Of a stretch of DNA of 47,849 nt, positions 1 through 26,271 are shown one piece after another. A program made the translations under genes and the position numbers. Origin of the DNA: Desulfallas thermosapovorans DSM 6562 (lineage in GTDB: Bacteria; Bacillota; Desulfotomaculia; Desulfotomaculales; Desulfallaceae); assembly GCF_008124625.1 (NCBI RefSeq), contig NZ_VNHM01000019.1, positions 1 to 47,849 on the forward strand. The letters run 5' to 3'. Under the pieces are notes generated by a model. That model searched no databases, was not told the origin of the DNA, and saw nothing but the letters and a program-made list of their open reading frames with translations. Within the stretch, counting starts at the first letter, position 1, and every line of letters begins with the position of its first letter.

Positions 1-138
1 AAGGACCACCTTTACATGGATTGGCTGACCAAGCGTGGCATAGATAAGGCTTTTACTGATGTCATGGTTTGCTTGATTACGTTTATAGCTGCGACAATGG
101 TGCAGATTAAAAGCAAGCTATTGAATACGGCTGCTTAG
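1..138 (+). pseudogene. C-terminal fragment, probably a transposase
   Basis: An open frame runs in from the left edge and stops with TAG at 136-138, giving 45 residues. It contains a hydrophobic stretch (CLITFIAATMVQIK) followed by a basic end, which resembles the C-terminal helix of many DDE transposases. The family cannot be named from so little. The context fits a mobile element, because the genes immediately to the right are truncated. The rest of the gene lies outside the window, so it may be intact there. Confidence 0.35.
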
Positions 139-324
139 TTGTTATAACCCCAAAAAGGTTTGTTAAATTTGTTGTTATTTGTGCTATAAGAAGCCATAGG
201 TGGTTTTTTGCGCTTTTTTTGCGTTAGGTTTGATCATATACCTGTATTACGCCATGAAACAAGCTAATTCTTGTTTTGGCTTGTGTTTATCGGTTGTTAG
301 CTTTTGGTGTTTTGGTTCGGAATG
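139..324. other. Non-coding stretch between transposase tail and broken pgsC
   Basis: This AT-rich stretch contains homopolymer runs and no convincing open frame on either strand. It probably holds the right end of the mobile element whose coding tail lies at 1-138. The junction with pgsC lies near 325-340. No terminal inverted repeat can be confirmed because the element's left end is outside the window. Confidence 0.3.
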
Positions 325-465
325 TTAATTTTGCAATTGGCTCATGAGTAAAACTAAATATCCCGGCACAACCAGACCGGCAGGTAGGATTCCGGTAATT
401 TCCGTAAATAATAAGCTCAAAACAACACCCAAAATTATAACTGTGGCAACAGTCGTAACAAGCAA
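325..465 (-). pseudogene. pgsC: PgsC/CapC N-terminal fragment (poly-gamma-glutamate synthesis)
   Basis: A 46-residue reading frame starts at TTG 465, four bases after the pgsB stop and behind a good GGAGG site (about 472-479, minus strand). The peptide is hydrophobic and contains the motifs LGVVLSLLF, TGILPAGLVVPGYL and a following hydrophobic run. These match the first third of PgsC/CapC, a membrane subunit of the poly-gamma-glutamate synthase. The family is about 150 residues long; here a stop falls at 325-327, right after the GYL motif, and the following sequence has no PgsC features. The gene was therefore cut, most likely by the element to its left. The identification rests on the motifs and on its position after pgsB. 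Confidence 0.7.
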
Positions 466-469
466 CTAT

Positions 470-1267
470 TTATCCTCCTTTAATAGCTAAGTTTCCTGTG
501 GTACTTGGTCGCACCTGACCTGTTTCCCGGTTGAAGCGGGTTTTTAATTCAGAGGGGAAGTCGTGAATTATCAATTCAACTAATTCGTCGCCACCGCCGT
601 GAATATTGCCAATGCCATAAGTTACTCTATTTTTAAGAGAATCCTTAATTGTTTTATAAACCTCACGGGGAGTCAAACCTTCAGCATTTACATATTTATT
701 GGGAGATATTTTTTTATTATTTACTCCTTCGGTAATTGGATTTACTGTCTGACCCATAGCAACAAGAATATCTATATCCATGTTTGGCAAGACCTCTTCT
801 GCTAACTGTAATGTCCTGTCAACCCTATCAGGCCTGCAATTTACAATTACCATGGGATTTTTTGTCGGGTAACCAAGAGCTGTTATATGCTCCCAAATCA
901 TTCGTGTGGAATTGGGATCATTGGCGGCAAAACCATTAACAAAATATGTAGGGCTTTCCTCGTCCAGGGTATAAATCATCAAAGCACCCGGGTCGGGATT
1001 GGCGTTTAACATCCCCCTTAACGCAGTATCTTTGTTAATGTTCAGCGCTTTAGCAACAGCCAACGCAATGGCGACATTTTCCGGAAAAATCACATATTTG
1101 AATTTCTCCAGGTAACCATCCGGGATCTCTTGTACATTTGCAATTATTACCTTGCAGTTTCTTTTTTTTGCTTCTTCAGTAAAATAGTCATTATATTTGC
1201 TATCATCAATAATAAGGGTTCCGTTTTTCGGTATTGTAGCCGTAAAGGACTCTGCAATAAAATCCAA
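470..1267 (-). CDS. pgsB: PgsB/CapB poly-gamma-glutamate synthase, 5'-truncated
   Basis: The 265 visible residues match the C-terminal two thirds of PgsB/CapB, the ATP-dependent amide ligase that polymerises glutamate at the membrane. Family landmarks in order are AESFTATIP, VIFPENVAIAL, GMLNANPDPGA, FVNGFAANDPNSTR, NCRPDRVDRT and YGIGNIHGGG. Family members are about 390 residues long, and the missing part is the N-terminal segment with the ATP-binding loop. The listed start is an internal TTG (Leu of TLDFIAESF). Homology appears to run a few codons further, to about 1276, where a minus-strand TGA at 1280-1282 closes the frame. The gene therefore has no real start and is probably inactive. 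It is followed four bases later by the pgsC fragment. Confidence 0.85.
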   Translation of the reverse strand: MDFIAESFTATIPKNGTLIIDDSKYNDYFTEEAKKRNCKVIIANVQEIPDGYLEKFKYVIFPENVAIALAVAKALNINKDTALRGMLNANPDPGALMIYTLDEESPTYFVNGFAANDPNSTRMIWEHITALGYPTKNPMVIVNCRPDRVDRTLQLAEEVLPNMDIDILVAMGQTVNPITEGVNNKKISPNKYVNAEGLTPREVYKTIKDSLKNRVTYGIGNIHGGGDELVELIIHDFPSELKTRFNRETGQVRPSTTGNLAIKGG

Positions 1268-1287
1268 AGTCCGGCCAGCTCAGCCAT

Positions 1288-2028
1288 TTGGCGGTGAGAC
1301 TGCGGGAGATGCATGCCGAAAGCCGCAGGATGGAAGAAGAAAAAGCCCAATTGTTTGCGGAGATATCGCATGAGTTGCGTACCCCTCTGACTGCTGTGCA
1401 GGGATTTGTAGAGGCTATTCGCGACGGTATGGTCCAGGATGAAGCTTTGCTCAAAAGGTACCTGGATACGATTTATACCCAAACAATTCATATTACCAGG
1501 CTGGTAGACGACATATTGGCGCTAACCCGCCTGGAAAGCGGCGATGTCACTGTGGAAAAACTGCCGGTGGACTTGGTCCCCCTGGCCCGGGATGTGGTTA
1601 TTTCCATGGAGGCAATGGCGGACAGCAAGAATACCTCGATTCTGTTCGAGAAAAAAACAGAAAACGCGGTCGTGCTCGGTGATGTTGACCGGATGGAACA
1701 GATAATCAGGAACTTGCTGAAGAATGCCGTCCGGGCCACTGAGAACGGCACTGTCAAGGTTGGGGTGGGGGTCCGTCAGGGTGAAGTGGTGCTAATCATT
1801 GAGGATGATGGTATTGGTATAGCCCCCGAAGACCTGCCGCACATTTGGGACAGGTTTTACCAGGTAAAGAACCAGCGTGGCGGTTACCTGCAGGAAAAAG
1901 GGAGCGGCCTGGGGTTGGCGATTGTGAAGAAGCTGGTTCAGTTACAGGACGGTAGCATAGATGTCACGAGTAAATTGGGGGAGGGAACGACTTTTTACAT
2001 CAAGTTCCCATCTTATAACCCGAAGTAA
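1288..2028 (+). CDS. Sensor histidine kinase, N-terminally truncated
   Basis: This is the cytoplasmic half of a membrane sensor kinase. It begins inside a HAMP-like helix (the frame reads GQLSHLAVRLREM upstream of the listed TTG). A HisKA domain follows with the phosphorylated histidine in EISHELRTPL (about residue 28), then an N box (RNLLKNAVRA), G1 (DDGIGIAPEDLPHIWDRFY) and G2 (GSGLGLAIVKKL). The transmembrane sensor domain and natural start are missing. The reading frame is lost at the junction with pgsB near 1268-1276, and no ribosome binding site precedes it. The kinase core looks intact, so the loss appears recent. No response regulator gene is adjacent. It may be expressed weakly from TTG 1288 or not at all. 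Confidence 0.8.
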   Translation: MAVRLREMHAESRRMEEEKAQLFAEISHELRTPLTAVQGFVEAIRDGMVQDEALLKRYLDTIYTQTIHITRLVDDILALTRLESGDVTVEKLPVDLVPLARDVVISMEAMADSKNTSILFEKKTENAVVLGDVDRMEQIIRNLLKNAVRATENGTVKVGVGVRQGEVVLIIEDDGIGIAPEDLPHIWDRFYQVKNQRGGYLQEKGSGLGLAIVKKLVQLQDGSIDVTSKLGEGTTFYIKFPSYNPK

Positions 2029-2161
2029 TGATTGGGGGTTGCAGGGTTGGACCCATTTACTGTAAAAAAATACGTAGCCGCAACCGTTTTATCAAATTGA
2101 CAACCTTCATGTATTTATATAAAATTAATTAAAATCTAAATAAGATAGTTAGTTATTAAAT

Positions 2162-2221
2162 TAGGTGAGATTAGTTTAGATAAAGTTAGAGTAAGTAGAG
2201 CTGAGATGAGCCGGAGAATAG
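2162..2221 (+). promoter_or_regulatory. Probable TRAP binding site in trp leader
   Basis: The sequence shows a run of TAG/GAG triplets spaced about five to six bases apart. They start at 2162, 2167, 2172, 2177, 2187 or 2189, 2196 or 2198, 2203, 2208, 2214 and 2219, with AAG triplets at 2183 and 2193 filling the gaps. In Bacillus, TRAP (MtrB) charged with tryptophan wraps eleven (G/U)AG repeats, separated by two or three bases, in the trp leader RNA. This array has that number and spacing, sits just upstream of an intrinsic terminator and leads into trpB. The segment 2208-2214 can pair, with a two-base bulge, with 2229-2237. That would make an antiterminator that competes with the terminator and would be blocked by TRAP. 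Confidence 0.7.
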
Positions 2222-2229
2222 TAAAACAC

Positions 2230-2256
2230 CGGTACTCGTTTGAGTGCCGTTTTTTT
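2230..2256 (+). terminator. trp leader terminator (attenuator)
   Basis: An 8-bp stem (2230-2237 with 2242-2249, one G-T pair) with a four-base GTTT loop is followed directly by seven T residues (2250-2256). It lies 33 bases upstream of the trpB start and so would stop transcription before the operon. With the triplet array at 2162-2221 it forms a typical transcription attenuator. Confidence 0.75.
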
Positions 2257-2289
2257 ATTTTTAAATAACGTAACCAGGGGGTGTGTTAT

Positions 2290-3474
2290 ATGAAAAAGGG
2301 AAGATTCGGCCGTTACGGCGGGCAGTATATGCCTGAAACATTGATGAAGGCCGTTTGGGAACTTGAAAAGGCTTACGAGTTCTATAAAAACGACCCTGAT
2401 TTTCAAAATGAGCTGGATGGTTTACTGAAAAAGTACGCTGGCAGGCCTTCACTGTTGTATTATGCGGCGAAGATGACACAGGATCTTGGCGGCGCAAAGA
2501 TATACCTCAAACGGGAGGACCTTAACCATACGGGCTCCCATAAAATTAACAATGTTCTGGGCCAGGTGCTGCTGGCTAAACGCATGGGGAAAACCCGTGT
2601 CATCGCCGAAACGGGTGCCGGGCAGCATGGTGTTGCCACTGCCACGGCTGCTGCATTGATGGATATGGAATGCGAAATCTTTATGGGCAAGGAAGACACC
2701 GAACGCCAGGCGTTGAATGTATTTCGCATGGAGTTGCTGGGTGCCAAAGTCCATCCGGTCACCAGCGGAACTATGACTTTAAAAGACGCCGTCAACGAAA
2801 CCATGCGTGAGTGGACAGCACGTATGGATGATACACTTTATGTCCTGGGTTCGGTTATGGGGCCGCACCCCTTCCCGACCATTGTACGGGATTTCCAAAA
2901 GGTTATAGGTAAAGAGATAAAAGAACAACTCATGGCGACCGAAGGAAAACTTCCCGATGTGATCGTCGCTTGTGTCGGCGGTGGCAGCAATGCTATAGGA
3001 GCATTCTATGAGTTTATTCAAGACCCGTCGGTAAAACTTATCGGCTGTGAGGCTGCCGGGCTTGGCGTAGATAACCCCAAAAATGCGGCAACGATTGCTA
3101 ATGGTACAGTCGGCGTGTTCCATGGCATGAAATCCTATTTCTGCCAGAACGAATACGGTCAGATCGCGCCGGTTTACTCCATTTCGGCGGGACTTGATTA
3201 TCCGGGAATCGGGCCGGAACACGCAAATCTTCACGATACAGGCCGGGCTCAGTACGTACCAATTACGGACGCGGAAGCTGTAGATGCCTTTGAATATCTT
3301 TCCCGCACCGAGGGAATCATCCCCGCCGTCGAAAGTGCACACGCCGTAGCCTACGCCAAAGAACTGGCGCCCAGGATGGCGAAGGACCAAATCATCGTCG
3401 TTAACCTCTCGGGACGAGGTGACAAAGACGTAGCGGCAATTGCCAGGTACAAGGGGGTATCACTTTATGAGTAG
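2290..3474 (+). CDS. trpB: Tryptophan synthase beta chain
   Basis: TrpB condenses indole, channelled from TrpA, with serine to make tryptophan, using pyridoxal phosphate. The PLP lysine is in HTGSHKINN (Lys85), the phosphate-binding glycine loop is GGGSNAIG (about residue 230), and the family motif [14 protein letters not shown] is present. The length (394 residues) is normal for the TrpB1 class. The start ATG 2290 is preferred over GTG 2281 because the AGGGGG site ends at 2280. The stop overlaps the trpA start by eight bases, so the two are co-translated. The leader suggests control by tryptophan through TRAP. The usual trpEGDC genes are not in this window. Confidence 0.96.
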
Positions 3475-4258
3475 AATTACCAGGGCCTTTGCAAATCGTA
3501 AAGCATTCATTCCCTTCGTCACGGGCGGCGATCCCGATATAGAAACCACGGAGAAACTGGTCCTCGCCATGGCGGAAGCGGGCGCTGATCTGATTGAAAT
3601 TGGTATACCGTTTTCTGACCCGGTTGCGGAAGGCGTCGTTATTCAGGAGGCGGACGAACGCGCGTTGAGGGGCGGCTGCACCACTGATAAACTTTTTGAG
3701 ATGATCATACAAATTCGTCAAAAAACGGATGTGCCGCTGCTGTTTATGACTTATCTCAACCCTATTTTCACTTACGGGAAGGAAAAGTTTTTAAGCCGGT
3801 GTGCCGAATGCGGCATCGACGGCCTCATCGTTCCTGATATGCCGTTTGAAGAAAAAGACGAATTGGCGGATGTCTGTGAGCTCCACGGAATCGATTTAAT
3901 TTCAATGATCGCCCCCACCTCGCAAGAACGGATAACTATGATCGCCAAAGAAGCCAGGGGGTTCATCTACTGCGTATCTTCCCTTGGCGTAACCGGCGTA
4001 CGCAGCGAGATTACAACGGACCTTGGCAAAATGGTGCAAAAGGTGCGGGAAGTTACCGGTGTTCCATGTGCCATCGGCTTCGGTATTTCCACACCTGAAC
4101 AGGCCGGCAGTATGGCCCTGCTGGCCGATGGCGTCATTGTCGGAAGTGCAATTGTAAAGTTGGTGGCAAAATTCGGCAAAGACAGCGTTGAACCCGTTTT
4201 AGATTATGTGCGCAGTATGAAAAAAGGCATAGATGATGCCGTTAAAAATAAATCATGA
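3467..4258 (+). CDS. trpA: Tryptophan synthase alpha chain
   Basis: TrpA cleaves indole-3-glycerol phosphate to indole and glyceraldehyde 3-phosphate and docks on TrpB. The catalytic glutamate is in [12 protein letters not shown] (Glu44, equal to Glu49 of Salmonella). The active-site loop GVTGVR and the C-terminal phosphate-binding segment ([10 protein letters not shown]) are present. The second acid, usually Asp in A-D-G-P, is Glu55 here and is followed by Gly-Val (AEGVVIQ). The change is conservative, and I recall Glu variants in other clostridia. ATG 3467 follows an AAGGGGG site inside trpB; an upstream in-frame codon at 3440 would make an implausible extension. Confidence 0.95.
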
Positions 4259-4355
4259 ACACACGGAAAACCTTTTTAGGAGGATATAATTTATTAAAAC
4301 AGTTCCTCCTGTAATGGAAGATCGTATCTTGCAATTTGGAACTGCGGATATTTAA

Positions 4356-4655
4356 ACAATTATAGAGGAACTGTGCAGGACCAGTGTTTATGGATTGCTT
4401 GCAGATTCCCGTGTGCCATCAAATGCATCCGCAATTGGTGCCGAACTGGATCTTAAGTTCTGCACGCAGATGATAAATTTATCTACAAAGCCGGTTATTA
4501 TTGCAGGTGGAATAAATGCCGGTAATGTCGGCAATATTTTAATGCGGACGGGCGCGGACTTCATCGATGTCATGACGGGCGTAGAGAACAGCCCGGGGGA
4601 AAAGGATGCTGAATCATTATCGCGCCTGTTAACATCTGTCTCCGTTGCCAAATAG
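4356..4655 (+). pseudogene. TrpF-like TIM-barrel remnant
   Basis: The frame opens after a stop at 4353-4355 and gives about 100 residues. The C-terminal part KPVIIAGGINAGNV, then GADFIDVMTGVE and SPGEKD, matches the last two strands of phosphoribosylanthranilate isomerase (TrpF), including its phosphate-binding glycines. TrpF is about 200 residues long, so the N-terminal half is missing. The sequence upstream (4279-4352) has an AGGAGG site and a short frame in another phase that stops at 4353, which suggests a deletion or frameshift. Placement right behind trpBA supports the trp link. A different phosphate-binding TIM-barrel enzyme is possible. Confidence 0.5.
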
Positions 4656-5055
4656 TCTGTTTGCTTGGCAGGAGCTTTTCAATGCTCCCAATACCTTTGA
4701 TATGGGTAAAGGCAGGTTTGCCGTGGAGTATTTGGGGGACTACAGGGTTGGTTTTGAGGACTGGAAAACCGGGCTAAAACACACTATTTTGCTGGATGAG
4801 AGCATGTACAAGGGAAACGAAGCACTCTTGGAAAACATTGATACATGGGTGGATCCGATCTCAGAGTATAAAGTCGTGGATAAAGACAACAACGGAGTTT
4901 GTGAGGTTACCAGTATCCAAAGGGTTACCGGTATTGCCCATGTGGATACCATTGCCAGACTGCAAACAACTTACCGCATGGGTAGGGGGTATCAACCGTC
5001 CACGATAACACTGGTGGACATTAACGGGAAGGTCTTGGCGGAGAAAAAAATTTAA
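4645..5055 (+). CDS. Hypothetical protein, probably an N-terminally truncated fragment
   Basis: The frame gives up to 136 residues and overlaps the TrpF-like remnant. No signal peptide or ribosome binding site is evident at the TTG 4645 start. The protein is rich in Thr, Asp and aromatic residues. It contains VVDKDNNGVCEVTSIQRVTG, a Dx(D/N)xxG-type loop seen in calcium-binding or VCBS-like secreted proteins. It probably begins in the middle of a domain, near residue 10, so it is likely the tail of a longer secreted protein whose front was lost. The function is unknown. Confidence 0.5.
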   Translation: MPNSLFAWQELFNAPNTFDMGKGRFAVEYLGDYRVGFEDWKTGLKHTILLDESMYKGNEALLENIDTWVDPISEYKVVDKDNNGVCEVTSIQRVTGIAHVDTIARLQTTYRMGRGYQPSTITLVDINGKVLAEKKI

Positions 5056-5081
5056 CAGCTAACAATCCCCGGGGCAGCGAC

Positions 5082-5231
5082 CTATGCGGCGACCCTGTGG
5101 TACATAACTATAAAATTATCCAGCATCTGACTTGCTTGAAGCAATTCATCGAAACTTGCGCCTGCGTCGATCAGATTATACAATCTGGCACGCAGGTGTT
5201 CTATTTCCAAGAGTATTTCCTCCCGAGACAT
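5082..5231 (-). CDS. Spo0E-like aspartyl-phosphate phosphatase
   Basis: This 49-residue gene reads MSREEILLEIEHLRARLYNL at its start and carries the Spo0E family core ASQMLDNFIVMY (residues 33-44), in which SQ-x-LD is the phosphatase signature. Spo0E-like proteins remove phosphate from phosphorylated Spo0A and so delay sporulation; they are two-helix hairpins of 45-85 residues. The ATG at 5231 follows an AGGTGA site six bases upstream on the minus strand. The gene stands alone and faces away from the pilin operon. The family match is clear from the motif; the target (Spo0A) is inferred. Confidence 0.8.
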   Translation of the reverse strand: MSREEILLEIEHLRARLYNLIDAGASFDELLQASQMLDNFIVMYHRVAA

Positions 5232-5515
5232 TACAAATCACCTCGGGTTTATACATTTCCTGATCACTTGTGATATTTCCTGCAAAAATAAACATAAAAT
5301 AATGTCGATATTTATATTAGACTTTTTTTATTTGCGTTGTAAAAAAGAAATAAGTAAAAAATTGGAAATTAGCAAGCTGCATCGGCCAAGTTTTATAGTT
5401 TAAAGGTAAATTTTTCCCTGTAAGGAGGTATTTTTTATTATTTGTCAAAATATTAACATTAAAGGTTTAAAAAGGCTGCAGCCCGGTTTTATCGCGCAGG
5501 TGTGGTCATTAAGCC
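5232..5515. other. Intergenic region between spo0E-like gene and pilin operon
   Basis: This AT-rich region should hold the divergent promoters of the flanking genes, but no clear pair of hexamers stands out. A strong AAGGAGG site at 5421-5427 is not followed by a usual start codon. The frame behind it could only begin at ATT near 5437 and would run about 37 codons into the pilin gene. I do not call it. Confidence 0.4.
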
Positions 5516-5983
5516 ATGATAGCGAAAAGGCAAGGTTTTACACTAATTGAACTAAATTTAATTATTTTAACCCTTGGCATTTTAGCCGCCATAGCTGTGC
5601 CAACCATGCAAAACTATCTGGCCGAATGCCAATTACAAGCCCATTGCAAGCGGCTGCAGCAAGAGATCGTGTCGGTTGCCCAGGAGGCGCTGGTTAAGGA
5701 CTCCAGCACCTTCTATATTAGGCTTGATTTACACAATGATAGATACATAGTCAGAGACCCGTCAAGCGGCGTCAATAGATTGGTTGAATTGCCGGCAGGA
5801 GTGGATCTGGCGTATTCTAATTTCCCCAGCAATACTATTTACTTTGGTCCCAAGGGTACGCCTAAAGTGGGTGGTACTATCAGGTTGGAGAGTAAAAAAA
5901 CAGGTATAATGCAGTACGTTATTATTGCCGCCGTCACGGGACGTACCAGAGTAAGTGACAAGCCGCCTTCATGGAATGAATAG
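5516..5983 (+). CDS. Type IV pseudopilin (GspH/FimT-like)
   Basis: The N-terminus MIAKRQG-FTLIEL is a class III prepilin signal: a short basic leader, cleavage after Gly7, Phe at +1 and Glu at +5, followed by a hydrophobic helix (residues 13-32). The rest (155 residues total) is a small globular domain like GspH/FimT minor pseudopilins. The protein would be processed by a PilD-type peptidase and inserted in a pilus or competence-type filament. It is the first of four genes in the same direction with gaps of 34, 7 and 33 bases. No PilB, PilC or PilD gene is in this window, so the assembly machinery must be elsewhere. Confidence 0.85.
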   Translation: MIAKRQGFTLIELNLIILTLGILAAIAVPTMQNYLAECQLQAHCKRLQQEIVSVAQEALVKDSSTFYIRLDLHNDRYIVRDPSSGVNRLVELPAGVDLAYSNFPSNTIYFGPKGTPKVGGTIRLESKKTGIMQYVIIAAVTGRTRVSDKPPSWNE

Positions 5984-6017
5984 CTGAAGTGGCAGCTGCT
6001 ACAGGGGGTAACTTCGG

Positions 6018-6951: not shown

Positions 6952-8175
6952 ATGGGCAGGTTCACCGGCCACCAGGATGGACATACTCTTATTTTGATCA
7001 TTATAATTTCCACAATACTTTTTATATCCACCACGGTTTTGGGAGCCATTGTGGGTATGAGCTATGTAAATGTAACCAGGGAGGAAGAACTGCTCCGGGT
7101 TTATTACGCGGCCGATGCCGGTATTGAAAAGACCCTGGCGATGGTAAAGGCGGAGCCCGCCTTGTTGAACGGCGTGCCCAAAACGGGTGGTGATAACTTT
7201 GGCACTGTCATTCCGGAAACAGAGATAAAAAGCGGCGTTACAGCCACAGTGGAGGCCGGCAAGTCAAAGCAAATTATCGGCACCTTGTTGAGCATCAGGT
7301 CTTTGGGTAAACGGAAAGCCGTTAACGGCGAACTGTTGGCTCAAAAAACACTCCACTGTGAGGCTGTTGTATATGATCCTGCGGAATATTTTAACGGTTT
7401 TATGATTTTGCCGGACCAGCCCGGTGATTTTAATTTTGATGGCATGCTCATGTTAACAGGGGCAGGGAACTTGGTTTTAAACGGCAGCATTAATCTATTT
7501 ACATTCCCGGTACAATGGGACGGCGATCTTGTTGCAAGCGGCGATGTGAAGGGCGCTGATATTGACAATAACATTTCCGGGCAAATACATGAACGTTACC
7601 GGTACATTCCCCCTTTCCCCGATCTTGATGTGGAATATTATTTTAAAATGGCTGATAATAGTGGAAAGGTGTTCGATGGGGGCGTTAGTTTCGGCATTAA
7701 TACGGGGGCAGGTAAAGGGGAGGAACCGGAAGAGATCAGGGAGCCGGGGGAAACGGGGGAAATGACTGCCTATAACGGTTTTTATTATGTGGATGGGGAT
7801 TTAGATATTGAAGGGAACTATAGCGGTACCGCACTGTTTTTTTCCACCGGTACCATTACCGTGATGGGAGACCTTAAAAGTTCAACGGGGACTACAGGCG
7901 CGGGCGGTTTGACGCTGGTGAGCTTTAAAGATGTGATTATCAACGGGGAGGTAGTTGAGGCTAACATTATAGCCAGTGGTTCTTTGGTCATCCGGCATGG
8001 TGCGAAGCTGTACGGTTCGGCTTGCGTGAGAGATGTGAAATTTTTACACGATACGCCGGTAACAGGTCCTTTTGCATTTGAAGTATATGAGGCAAGCAAT
8101 ATCAAGCCCATTGAAGGGGCTTTAAACATACAAATAAAAGAAATACAATGGAAGGAACAGTACCCGGTTTTTTAG
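6952..8175 (+). CDS. PilX-like pilus assembly protein with beta-rich tail
   Basis: The N-terminus has one membrane helix (about residues 11-36) followed by REEELLRVYYAADAGIEKTLAMVK, the typical PilX N-terminal helix. It lacks a strict G-F-x-x-x-E cleavage motif. The remaining 340 residues are rich in Gly, Val and Asn and include short repeating strands (TITVMGDLKSSTG, DVIINGEVVEANIIASGSLVI) that suggest a beta-helix or bactofilin-like fold. The protein (407 residues) closes the four-gene pseudopilin operon and is the only large member. It may be the exposed tip protein or adhesin of the filament; that role is inferred. Confidence 0.7.
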   Translation: MGRFTGHQDGHTLILIIIISTILFISTTVLGAIVGMSYVNVTREEELLRVYYAADAGIEKTLAMVKAEPALLNGVPKTGGDNFGTVIPETEIKSGVTATVEAGKSKQIIGTLLSIRSLGKRKAVNGELLAQKTLHCEAVVYDPAEYFNGFMILPDQPGDFNFDGMLMLTGAGNLVLNGSINLFTFPVQWDGDLVASGDVKGADIDNNISGQIHERYRYIPPFPDLDVEYYFKMADNSGKVFDGGVSFGINTGAGKGEEPEEIREPGETGEMTAYNGFYYVDGDLDIEGNYSGTALFFSTGTITVMGDLKSSTGTTGAGGLTLVSFKDVIINGEVVEANIIASGSLVIRHGAKLYGSACVRDVKFLHDTPVTGPFAFEVYEASNIKPIEGALNIQIKEIQWKEQYPVF

Positions 8176-9091: not shown

Positions 9092-10552
9092 ATGGGGCAC
9101 ATGGCGGGTAAGGATATATATCGCAGGTTGGGCGAGAAAATTGACAATCTCACCGTGAAATCCCCTTGGAACGAGGCCCTGCACCGGGTACTCAAGGAGT
9201 TGTACACCGAAGAAGAAGCGGACCTGGTGGTGCAAATGCCCTACTTGCTTTCCAGTGCGGATAGAATTGCCGGTATAACCGGCATTGATCCTGAAATAAT
9301 GCAGGGCCGTCTGGCAAGTTTGGCGGAGAAGGGGTTGGTGCTGGACCTTTACCATGACGGCCGGTACTATTACATGCCCTCTCCGCTTATGGTCGGTATA
9401 TTCGAGTTTACCATGATGCGCAGCGGCAGCTTTAACCCCACGGTTGCGGCGAACCTGTTTTACGCCTACCTGTCCGGCAGCGGGGATTTTTACCGGGCTA
9501 ACGCCGGTGACGGGCAGCAAATCGCCTTGGCCAGGGCTCTACCATATACAGATGCGGTGGCACCGGAAGATGTGGTGGAAATTCTGCCATATGAAAAAGC
9601 CGAGGCCATTGTGGACAGCCACAGGCAATATGCCATCGGTACCTGTGCCTGCCGGCACGAGAAGCTGCACAGCGGCCACAAAAACTGTTCCGTGCCCCTG
9701 GACACCTGCATGTCCTTTGGTTATGCTGCGGATTATTTGATCAGGCATAATATGGCCGTGCAGGTCAGCCGCGGTCAGGCAATGGAGAACCTGGCCCGCT
9801 GCCGGGAATTGGGGCTGGTGTTTTGCGCCGATAACGTGCAAAGGAACGTCACCTTTATTTGTTGCTGCTGTGCTTGCTGTTGCAATATGCTCCAGGGCAT
9901 CAATAGGTTCGGGTATCCCGGCTTTATCAAAACCTCCGGCTTTATTGCAACTGTGGAGAGTGATAAATGCACGGGCTGTGGCCGGTGTGCCGCGGCTTGC
10001 CCGGTAAAGGCCATCCGTTTGGCGCCTGTCCAAAGAGGTAATCCGGCCAATTCGGTGCTGGCCGGTGCGCTGCCCGCCCGGGGTGGAGCACCGGTTGGTT
10101 TGGACGCAGTCGCTCCGCTACCCGGTCAGGGTAACGAAACCCTTGGTTACCCGGAAAGCAAGCCCGTGTCCGGGCCGGCTTCCGGCAGCGTACAGAAACC
10201 CGTGAAGTTTTCCTTAATAGATGAAGATATCTGCCTGGGGTGCGGGGTGTGCGTAACGCAATGTGTTTTTCGGGCACTGCGGCTTAGAAAACGCCGCCAG
10301 AGGGTGCTGCCCCCGGAGACCACTTTTGAACGCAACATACTGGCCTGTCTGGAAAGGGGAACCCTGCAGAACTACATATTTGACGATCCCGGTGCCGTCA
10401 CCCACCGGGTGATGCGGGGTATCCTGGGGGGTATTCTGAAACTACCCCCGGTTAAAAAAGCGCTGGTCAGGGATACATTCCGTTCCGCTTTTATTAATAC
10501 ACTTGTGGCGGTGGTAAAGCTAACGGATAAACACTGGATTACCAAACTTTAA
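9092..10552 (+). CDS. 4Fe-4S dicluster protein with winged-helix-like front and extra Cys clusters
   Basis: The 486-residue protein has three parts. Residues 1-150 look like a helical, winged-helix-type domain (YLLSSADRIAGITGIDPEIM, then GLVLDLYHDGRYYYMP). The middle carries CACRHEK (about 184) and a run CCCCACCC (about 257-264). The C-terminal third has two ferredoxin motifs, CTGCGRCAAACP (about 292) and CLGCGVCVTQC (about 380), separated by a Pro/Gly-rich linker of about 60 residues. The second motif lacks the usual final proline. It probably transfers electrons in the cytoplasm, but its partner is not adjacent. The alternative start ATG 9101 is possible. Confidence 0.75.
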   Translation: MGHMAGKDIYRRLGEKIDNLTVKSPWNEALHRVLKELYTEEEADLVVQMPYLLSSADRIAGITGIDPEIMQGRLASLAEKGLVLDLYHDGRYYYMPSPLMVGIFEFTMMRSGSFNPTVAANLFYAYLSGSGDFYRANAGDGQQIALARALPYTDAVAPEDVVEILPYEKAEAIVDSHRQYAIGTCACRHEKLHSGHKNCSVPLDTCMSFGYAADYLIRHNMAVQVSRGQAMENLARCRELGLVFCADNVQRNVTFICCCCACCCNMLQGINRFGYPGFIKTSGFIATVESDKCTGCGRCAAACPVKAIRLAPVQRGNPANSVLAGALPARGGAPVGLDAVAPLPGQGNETLGYPESKPVSGPASGSVQKPVKFSLIDEDICLGCGVCVTQCVFRALRLRKRRQRVLPPETTFERNILACLERGTLQNYIFDDPGAVTHRVMRGILGGILKLPPVKKALVRDTFRSAFINTLVAVVKLTDKHWITKL

Positions 10553-26139: not shown

Positions 26140-26268
26140 AAAAATTTTGTCACCGAGTTCCCGTTACGGGAAGCGGGGGAACCAGTTTTGGGGTGAAATG
26201 CAATAAAGCATGGGGCTGTCACTTCGTCCTAACCCGTCAGCTAACCTCGTAGGTGTAGAAAGTGAGGC
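26140..26268 (+). promoter_or_regulatory. c-di-AMP riboswitch (ydaO/yuaA class)
   Basis: The leader contains the hallmark core elements in order: GCGGGGGAACC, GGGGTGAA, and CCCGTCAGCTAACCTCGTAG, followed by a closing stem next to the start codon. These match the ydaO riboswitch family, which turns off expression when cyclic di-AMP binds and often precedes cell-wall hydrolase genes. The downstream gene is such a hydrolase, which supports the call. Ends are approximate. Confidence 0.9.
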
Positions 26269-26271
26269 AAC

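Follow-up and report, generated by a model that had tools for sequence, protein, structure and literature searches.

The leader in front of trpBA in the analysed window, a stretch of 47,849 nt of Desulfallas thermosapovorans DSM 6562 (contig NZ_VNHM01000019.1, forward strand), is very probably a TRAP-controlled transcription attenuator of these two genes. This reading is based on the computed parts of the leader, the mutual exclusion of its two RNA structures, an MtrB protein in the genome, sister leaders and the co-occurrence of such leaders with mtrB. The mechanism is of a known kind, the TRAP attenuator; not expected were its site on an acquired trpBA, its apparent substitution for a T-box and how widely mtrB occurs in the class.

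The leader is compact and lies between a 5′-truncated histidine-kinase gene and trpB, and the TRAP-type attenuator itself covers positions 2131-2256 (about 125 nt). It is preceded on the + strand by a sigma-A-type promoter (2097-2125) composed of TTGACA at 2097-2102, 17 nt and TAAAAT at 2120-2125, which matches 11 of 12 consensus positions and was missing from the feature list of an earlier sequence-only reading of this DNA. Based on the promoter position the transcription start is expected near 2131. The presumed TRAP-binding region (2162-2221, + strand) is a twelve-place NAG register made up of TAG 2162, GAG 2167, TAG 2172, TAG 2177, AAG 2183, TAG 2187 or GAG 2189, AAG 2193, GAG 2198 (TAG 2196), GAG 2203, GAG 2208, GAG 2214 and TAG 2219. 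Two extra TAG triplets (2146 and 2150) are located 5′ of the register. The register thus holds ten G/TAG and two AAG triplets, and one of its spacers measures 1 nt. Against a definition of eleven G/UAG with spacers of 2-3 nt it shows the pattern but not the exact number of G/UAG. The sequence-only reading had noticed about ten (G/T)AG and two AAG triplets ahead of trpB, as were located here; the periodicity of five to six bases that it described applies to most steps, but a single step of 4 nt beside 2187/2189 departs from it. The intrinsic terminator that it had seen between the triplets and trpB was located at 2230-2256 (+ strand), with an 8-bp stem (2230-2237 with 2242-2249, 5 G-C pairs), a loop of 4 nt (2238-2241) and a T7 stretch (2250-2256). 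The likely ribosome site is AGGGGG, a purine stretch shortly before the trpB start, and position 2289, given earlier as the end of the feature, is indeed the base preceding the trpB ATG at 2290. Within positions 1-6000 the promoter ranked first among 12 promoter-like sites (11.0 expected by chance) and the terminator hairpin 2230-2249 first among 12 terminator-like sites (7.5 expected); measured against these expectations, both elements are unremarkable by mere presence.

For the triplet array a chain score was used, which is our own and was devised after the site had been seen. The array scored 10.8, the runner-up on both strands of the window scored 4.6, and 200 dinucleotide-shuffled versions of the whole window gave 6.1 at most. 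Shuffling the leader itself 5000 times never gave a score of 10.8, but the highest value was 10.2 because the leader is very AG-rich. Two search procedures were discarded. A genome search for three evenly spaced KAG triplets gave 39 matches against 146 in the reversed control and thus no signal, and it was replaced by covariance models. With the NAG-chain score at its threshold the leaders of trpE and trpG in the window genome and of trpG in two other genomes of the genus (G004 and G005) went unnoticed, because a T-rich gap splits their arrays. A count of linked triplets recovers the split trpE and trpG leaders, together with GAG-rich gene starts without a terminator.

The antiterminator (2204-2241, + strand) is formed by pairing of 2204-2214 with 2229-2232 and 2235-2241; the pairing of 2208-2214 with 2229-2237 that had been proposed from the sequence turned out to be its core. 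It is the minimum-energy fold of the leader without the 3′ arm of the terminator (-12.6 kcal/mol, z of -1.85), and as 11 of 200 shuffles were equally stable, its stability taken alone is modest. Its 5′ strand contains GAG 2208 and parts of GAG 2203 and GAG 2214. The antiterminator uses the 5′ arm of the terminator, and therefore the two structures are mutually exclusive. In the nascent leader RNA with unconstrained triplets the antiterminator forms, and folding with the G/UAG triplets forced to be single-stranded, which mimics TRAP, leads to loss of the antiterminator and leaves the terminator only. For the full-length leader without protein the terminator is the minimum-energy fold, and therefore read-through depends on how the RNA folds while it is being transcribed. 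The same folding test gave a like result for the leaders of trpE and trpG in this genome and of trpG in G005.

From these parts TRAP binding, dependence on tryptophan and a direction of the response are predicted. When tryptophan is plentiful, the MtrB ring would bind tryptophan and, on the nascent leader, wrap the NAG array, whose last triplets would then be unavailable for the antiterminator; the terminator at 2230-2256 would form and trpBA would be switched off. When tryptophan is scarce, TRAP would stay off the RNA, the antiterminator would form first and the polymerase would read through.

An mtrB gene, whose absence had been named beforehand as refuting the reading, was found by profile search of the genome at G000:C5:118126-118326 (PF02081, E=8e-41). 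Its product of 77 aa scores 141.9 bits against the NCBIfam equivalog cut-off of 117, residues 9-74 align with the solved TRAP structure 1c9s, and the blocks TRGxDTxFHHSEKLDKGEV and AQFTxHTSAIKxRG are retained. Within these blocks, TRGxDT, HSEKLDKGEV, QFTxHTS and KxRG are taken by us to be the tryptophan- and RNA-contacting parts. The neighbours of mtrB read in translation as dnaE- and pfkA-like frames. A look-up of anti-TRAP, which the sequence-only reading had also asked for, ended differently: the profile search gave none in the 16 family genomes. At the level of the class 29 of 113 genomes match the anti-TRAP profile at E<=0.001 and three of them (G069, G070 and G085) are above the cut-off, of which G069 alone has a short frame (74 residues) and is the sole convincing anti-TRAP. 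The anti-TRAP model also matches E. coli and other control genomes, so that weak matches mean little. The other matches mostly fall into frames of about 370-430 residues, which probably encode DnaJ zinc fingers; frames of other lengths occur as well, among them some of 92, 191 and 1576 residues. Anti-TRAP is a dispensable part of a TRAP system, as some bacilli have TRAP without it (PMC11255114).

Two covariance models were built, the E-values of which rest on a shortened calibration. Model R1 includes the window leader, and only R2, made from six leaders (trpE and trpG of G000, i.e. the genome of the window, G004 and G005) with the window and the metagenome-assembled genome (MAG) Soudan_19 excluded, is independent of the window. 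The second of two leaders in Soudan_19 was misaligned and was excluded from both models. R2 matched the window at 2162-2256 with E=1.4e-10; up to E=10 the window gave just two more matches, the first on the mirror strand of the same hairpin (0.23), the second at 7.2. This leave-out match and the MtrB in the genome support the layout of a TRAP-type attenuator that had been recognised from the sequence. Among 84 other loci (838,701 bases) R2 found, at E<=1, two leaders in L054, the Soudan_19 locus (8.2e-8 and 0.0038, the latter being the second leader), and one in L137 (0.38). A set of 38 leaders was collected with R1 from sources already matching R1 and was aligned to the R1 structure, so that the following percentages lean towards that structure: 97.0% of the cells of the terminator helix and 94.0% of those of the antiterminator are paired. 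In the terminator 18 cells had changed on both sides compared to 3.2 in shuffles, a value attained by 0 of 500 shuffles. Across the 38 leaders no covariation was found for the antiterminator because its strands hardly vary.

Applied to 150 of 171 candidates in the genome of the window, R1 identified four leaders at E<=8.9e-7 and none further to E=1. Besides the trpBA leader of the window these are the trpE leader (C6:162211-162311), the leader of trpG with trpD, trpC, trpF and DAHP synthase, named from profile searches (C6:158606-158720), and the leader of a substrate-binding TrpX-like gene (C10:46606-46701). The latter gene has TrpX as its best NCBIfam match (284 bits, under the cut-off of 390) and also matches PF04392. 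The trpE and trpG genes are separated by two opposite-strand frames. The common leader type suggests that the trpBA leader belongs to the host TRAP regulon together with trpE, trpG(DCF-aroF) and the TrpX-like gene. In relatives, where gene names beside the leaders are our reading of translations, R1-type leaders precede TrpX-like genes (e.g. L182, L186, L187, L189 and L177), trpDC (L183, E=6.6e-6; L160, E=0.279) and a trpG/pabB pair (L195, 0.091). Three further sites were observed. A TRAP-like array with a terminator and a later second GAG run lies before an ECF-type membrane protein in G004 (L166 1501-1590, - strand, 0.046) and before a lipoprotein-like frame in G001 (L137 17892-17977, + strand, 0.38), and an attenuator in G011 (L192 1501-1588, - strand, E=2.9e-4) precedes a gene reading as aldehyde:ferredoxin oxidoreductase, which is an unexpected target. 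The L166 and L137 sites are weak by model, and the weaker matches among all these leaders of relatives may be due to chance.

The occurrence of attenuators was compared with that of mtrB. In the genus mtrB is present in five of seven genomes; G000, G004 and G005 have strong attenuators, G001 has weak ones (0.279 and 0.496) despite a full-length mtrB, and none was found to E=1 in G002, G003 and G006. The mtrB copy of G002 (L005 1501-1632) matches the profile only at positions 26-69. This genome also lacks a canonical trpB and shows no TRAP attenuator to E=1, so that the regulator may be degenerating after the loss of its targets. Another 15 genomes were compared, of which 9 belong to the family and 6 were reached via related loci; nine of the 15 have mtrB, and exactly those nine have attenuators at E<=0.1. 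Of the 113 genomes of the class 105 have mtrB and 85 show an attenuator at E<=0.01, namely 84 of the 105 with mtrB and one of the eight without (Fisher p 2e-4, a test treating related genomes as independent); the table behind this tally omits 8 unmatched genomes, and G113 and G116 were counted as attenuator-free, being absent among the matched rows. G033 has a weak attenuator match (0.0019) without mtrB, and the 21 mtrB genomes without an attenuator at E<=0.01 were obtained with stricter filters and 33 candidates scored per genome.

Three other explanations of the leader were weighed. A decayed relic, in which the two AAG triplets and the 1-nt spacer of the array would abolish TRAP binding and the terminator would merely lower expression, is improbable: the register still has twelve places, of which the 11-subunit ring requires eleven, the Soudan_19 leader shares 82% identity with it over 127 bases and retains the array, and the trpE and trpG arrays of the same genome are likewise irregular yet conserved between species. 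The geometry of terminator and antiterminator alone would equally suit ribosome-mediated attenuation via a leader peptide with tryptophan codons. However, positions 2131-2230 contain no TGG in any frame and a sole ATG (2206), which lies inside the antiterminator, so that a leader peptide is scarcely conceivable.

A tryptophan T-box leader might be considered on account of the related operons. T-boxes (RF00230) precede the homologous trpB in G014 (114.0 bits), G001 (113.4 bits), G006 (116.5 bits) and G003 (115.5 bits), with UGG as specifier by reading of the alignments, and the trpB2 gene of the window genome also has one (L032, 105.7 bits). Nevertheless this possibility is extremely slight for trpBA, as RF00230 has no match in the whole window at the gathering score and the leader, at its short length, resembles the TRAP leaders of trpE and trpG. 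A TRAP attenuator therefore remains the preferred reading of the leader.

The genes downstream are, as had been noted, a trpBA unit, and both were found intact 3′ of the leader: trpB at 2290-3474 (+ strand, 394 aa, TIGR00263 with 654.6 bits at a cut-off of 392) and trpA at 3470-4258 (+ strand, PF00290, E=7.8e-90). They are followed by a 3′ remnant of an acquired trpF at 4291-4655 (+ strand), which matches positions 124-190 of 193 of PF00697 and begins at the junction found by blastn. The TrpB of the window shares 95% identity with one TrpB of G014, 93% with the Soudan_19 protein and 79-80% with the proteins of G001, G003, G006 and G008, compared to 59-63% for trpB of other family genomes and the second trpB of G014; at the DNA level the trpBA of the window shares 92% identity with G014 and 91% with Soudan_19. 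The operons of G014 and Soudan_19 run on into trpD, trpC and trpF. After trpA the window has a deletion of about 2.06 kb comprising trpD, trpC and the 5′ part of trpF, which both nearest relatives retain; window position 4291 meets positions 6999 and 9057 of L054 and positions 9708 and 11771 of L138. These comparisons mark the trpBA of the window as what is left of an acquired trpBADCF operon. In G004 trpB and trpA are located between trpF and DAHP synthase. At the same place, the native operon of the window genome has only a 34-base match around the trpB start (94%) and a 216-base match to the trpA end (83%). Native trpBA and acquired trpDC are thus both deleted, and therefore the two copies have lost complementary parts. 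The only other TrpB-like gene of the genome is trpB2 (34% identity), due to which the trpB of the window need not be the sole source of activity.

Two side observations concern other parts of the window. Upstream of the leader, at 470-2028, a pgsB without its 5′ part (positions 148-380 of 380) abuts the histidine-kinase frame, which has HisKA and HATPase domains only; a rearrangement point is likely near 1267-1288, a short way 5′ of the acquired trpBA. A c-di-AMP riboswitch (ydaO/yuaA) is located at 26141-26271 (86.5 bits).

T-box cores before trpB are also present in L055, L056, L058 and L059, and a variant form in L057. Of 80 related loci, 17 have a T-box core upstream of trpB by exact and 21 by relaxed matching, and the T-box state is claimed for the named near relatives only. 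The genomes of L055, L056, L058, L063 and L066 have neither mtrB nor an attenuator at E<=0.1. In G014 the T-box is located on a foreign operon and the native trp genes lie elsewhere with TRAP-type leaders. Soudan_19, which is of the same order (listed as G118) and has mtrB, carries two tandem TRAP-type attenuators before trpBADCF (L054 4619-4894), which could sharpen the response. The Soudan_19 stretch between the second attenuator and trpB aligns with the 3′ part of the T-box terminator of G014 and is an apparent T-box terminator stub, and the window retains the last part of that stretch beside its own terminator.

The simplest reading of these alignments would be that the T-box came first and TRAP later. 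It seems reasonably probable that a staged regulatory takeover took place, in which a horizontally spread trpBADCF operon under a tRNA-Trp T-box was brought into the host TRAP regulon by leader exchange. The stages proposed would be G014 with the T-box operon, Soudan_19 with tandem TRAP attenuators and the stub, and the genome of the window as the finished state with one TRAP leader and deletion of native trpBA and foreign trpDC. In trpB alone the window groups with G014 (95/93), and trpBA with the trpF end does not separate the window, G014 and Soudan_19. Derived shared sites in trpBA number 14 for the window and G014, 11 for Soudan_19 and G014 and 7 for the window and Soudan_19. The trpB grouping and these shared sites count against one leader exchange in an ancestor of the window and Soudan_19 alone; the leader and start region may have moved by recombination.

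Within the family trpB2 presents a like choice between a T-box and a TRAP-like stretch. T-boxes precede trpB2 in 5 of 14 loci, namely those of G000, G001, G002, G003 and G006. The other nine loci (L023-L031), all from genomes with mtrB, have a GAG run with steps of about 5 nt over the ribosome site and start, located some 220-260 bases ahead of the part of trpB2 that was matched. Chain scores of these runs (5.0-6.0) are attainable by shuffled windows, and therefore the argument is conservation between species and not the score. A like run lies over the trpD start in G000, G004 and G005 (L134 9836-9914, L140 8359-8437 and L141 9533-9611, all - strand). Bacillus TRAP translation sites resemble such GAG runs over gene starts, and by analogy translation of trpB2 is possibly under TRAP control; GAG-rich ribosome sites at trpB2 and trpD starts can arise otherwise.

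With mtrB in nearly all genomes of the class, TRAP is placed at the centre of tryptophan control in the whole class. In a literature search no paper was found on TRAP leaders in this class, and the experimental TRAP papers found concern Bacillus proteins. Comparative papers by Gutierrez-Preciado, Merino and Yanofsky reportedly list mtrB in some Clostridia, and no priority is claimed here. One figure of PMC2494555 marks Firmicutes with TRAP. As no anti-TRAP was found in the family, the charging signal that is fed into TRAP in B. subtilis may be missing for these units, while the trpB2 of the same genome keeps its T-box.

The leader resembles the B. subtilis trp attenuator in its G/UAG array, antiterminator, competing terminator and the MtrB encoded in the genome. 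It differs in that it controls trpBA alone, and mtrB lies here beside dnaE- and pfkA-like genes and not, as in B. subtilis, after folE. For the B. subtilis trp leader PMC3913778 describes eleven G/UAG triplets with spacers of 2-3 nt, an antiterminator prevented by TRAP binding and a competing terminator, which is weak with an interrupted U stretch; the window leader has ten G/UAG and two AAG instead, and an unbroken stretch of seven U. The trpBA leader has its terminator and block of last triplets in common with the leaders of trpE and trpG in this genome, G004 and G005, and one model finds all of them; most of the trpE and trpG arrays are split by a T-rich gap, whereas the trpBA array is continuous and includes AAG. 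The Soudan_19 leader is similar over its 127 aligned bases and also stands before a closely related trpBA, but L054 has two attenuators in tandem, the apparent stub and retained trpD, trpC and trpF. Tryptophan T-box leaders occupy the same place before homologous trpB and likewise attenuate in response to tryptophan supply; unlike the TRAP leader, they sense uncharged tRNA directly, without a protein. The related operons form a natural series in which a switch for uncharged tRNA appears to have been exchanged for a switch for free tryptophan on the same genes, and therefore what decides between the two becomes testable.
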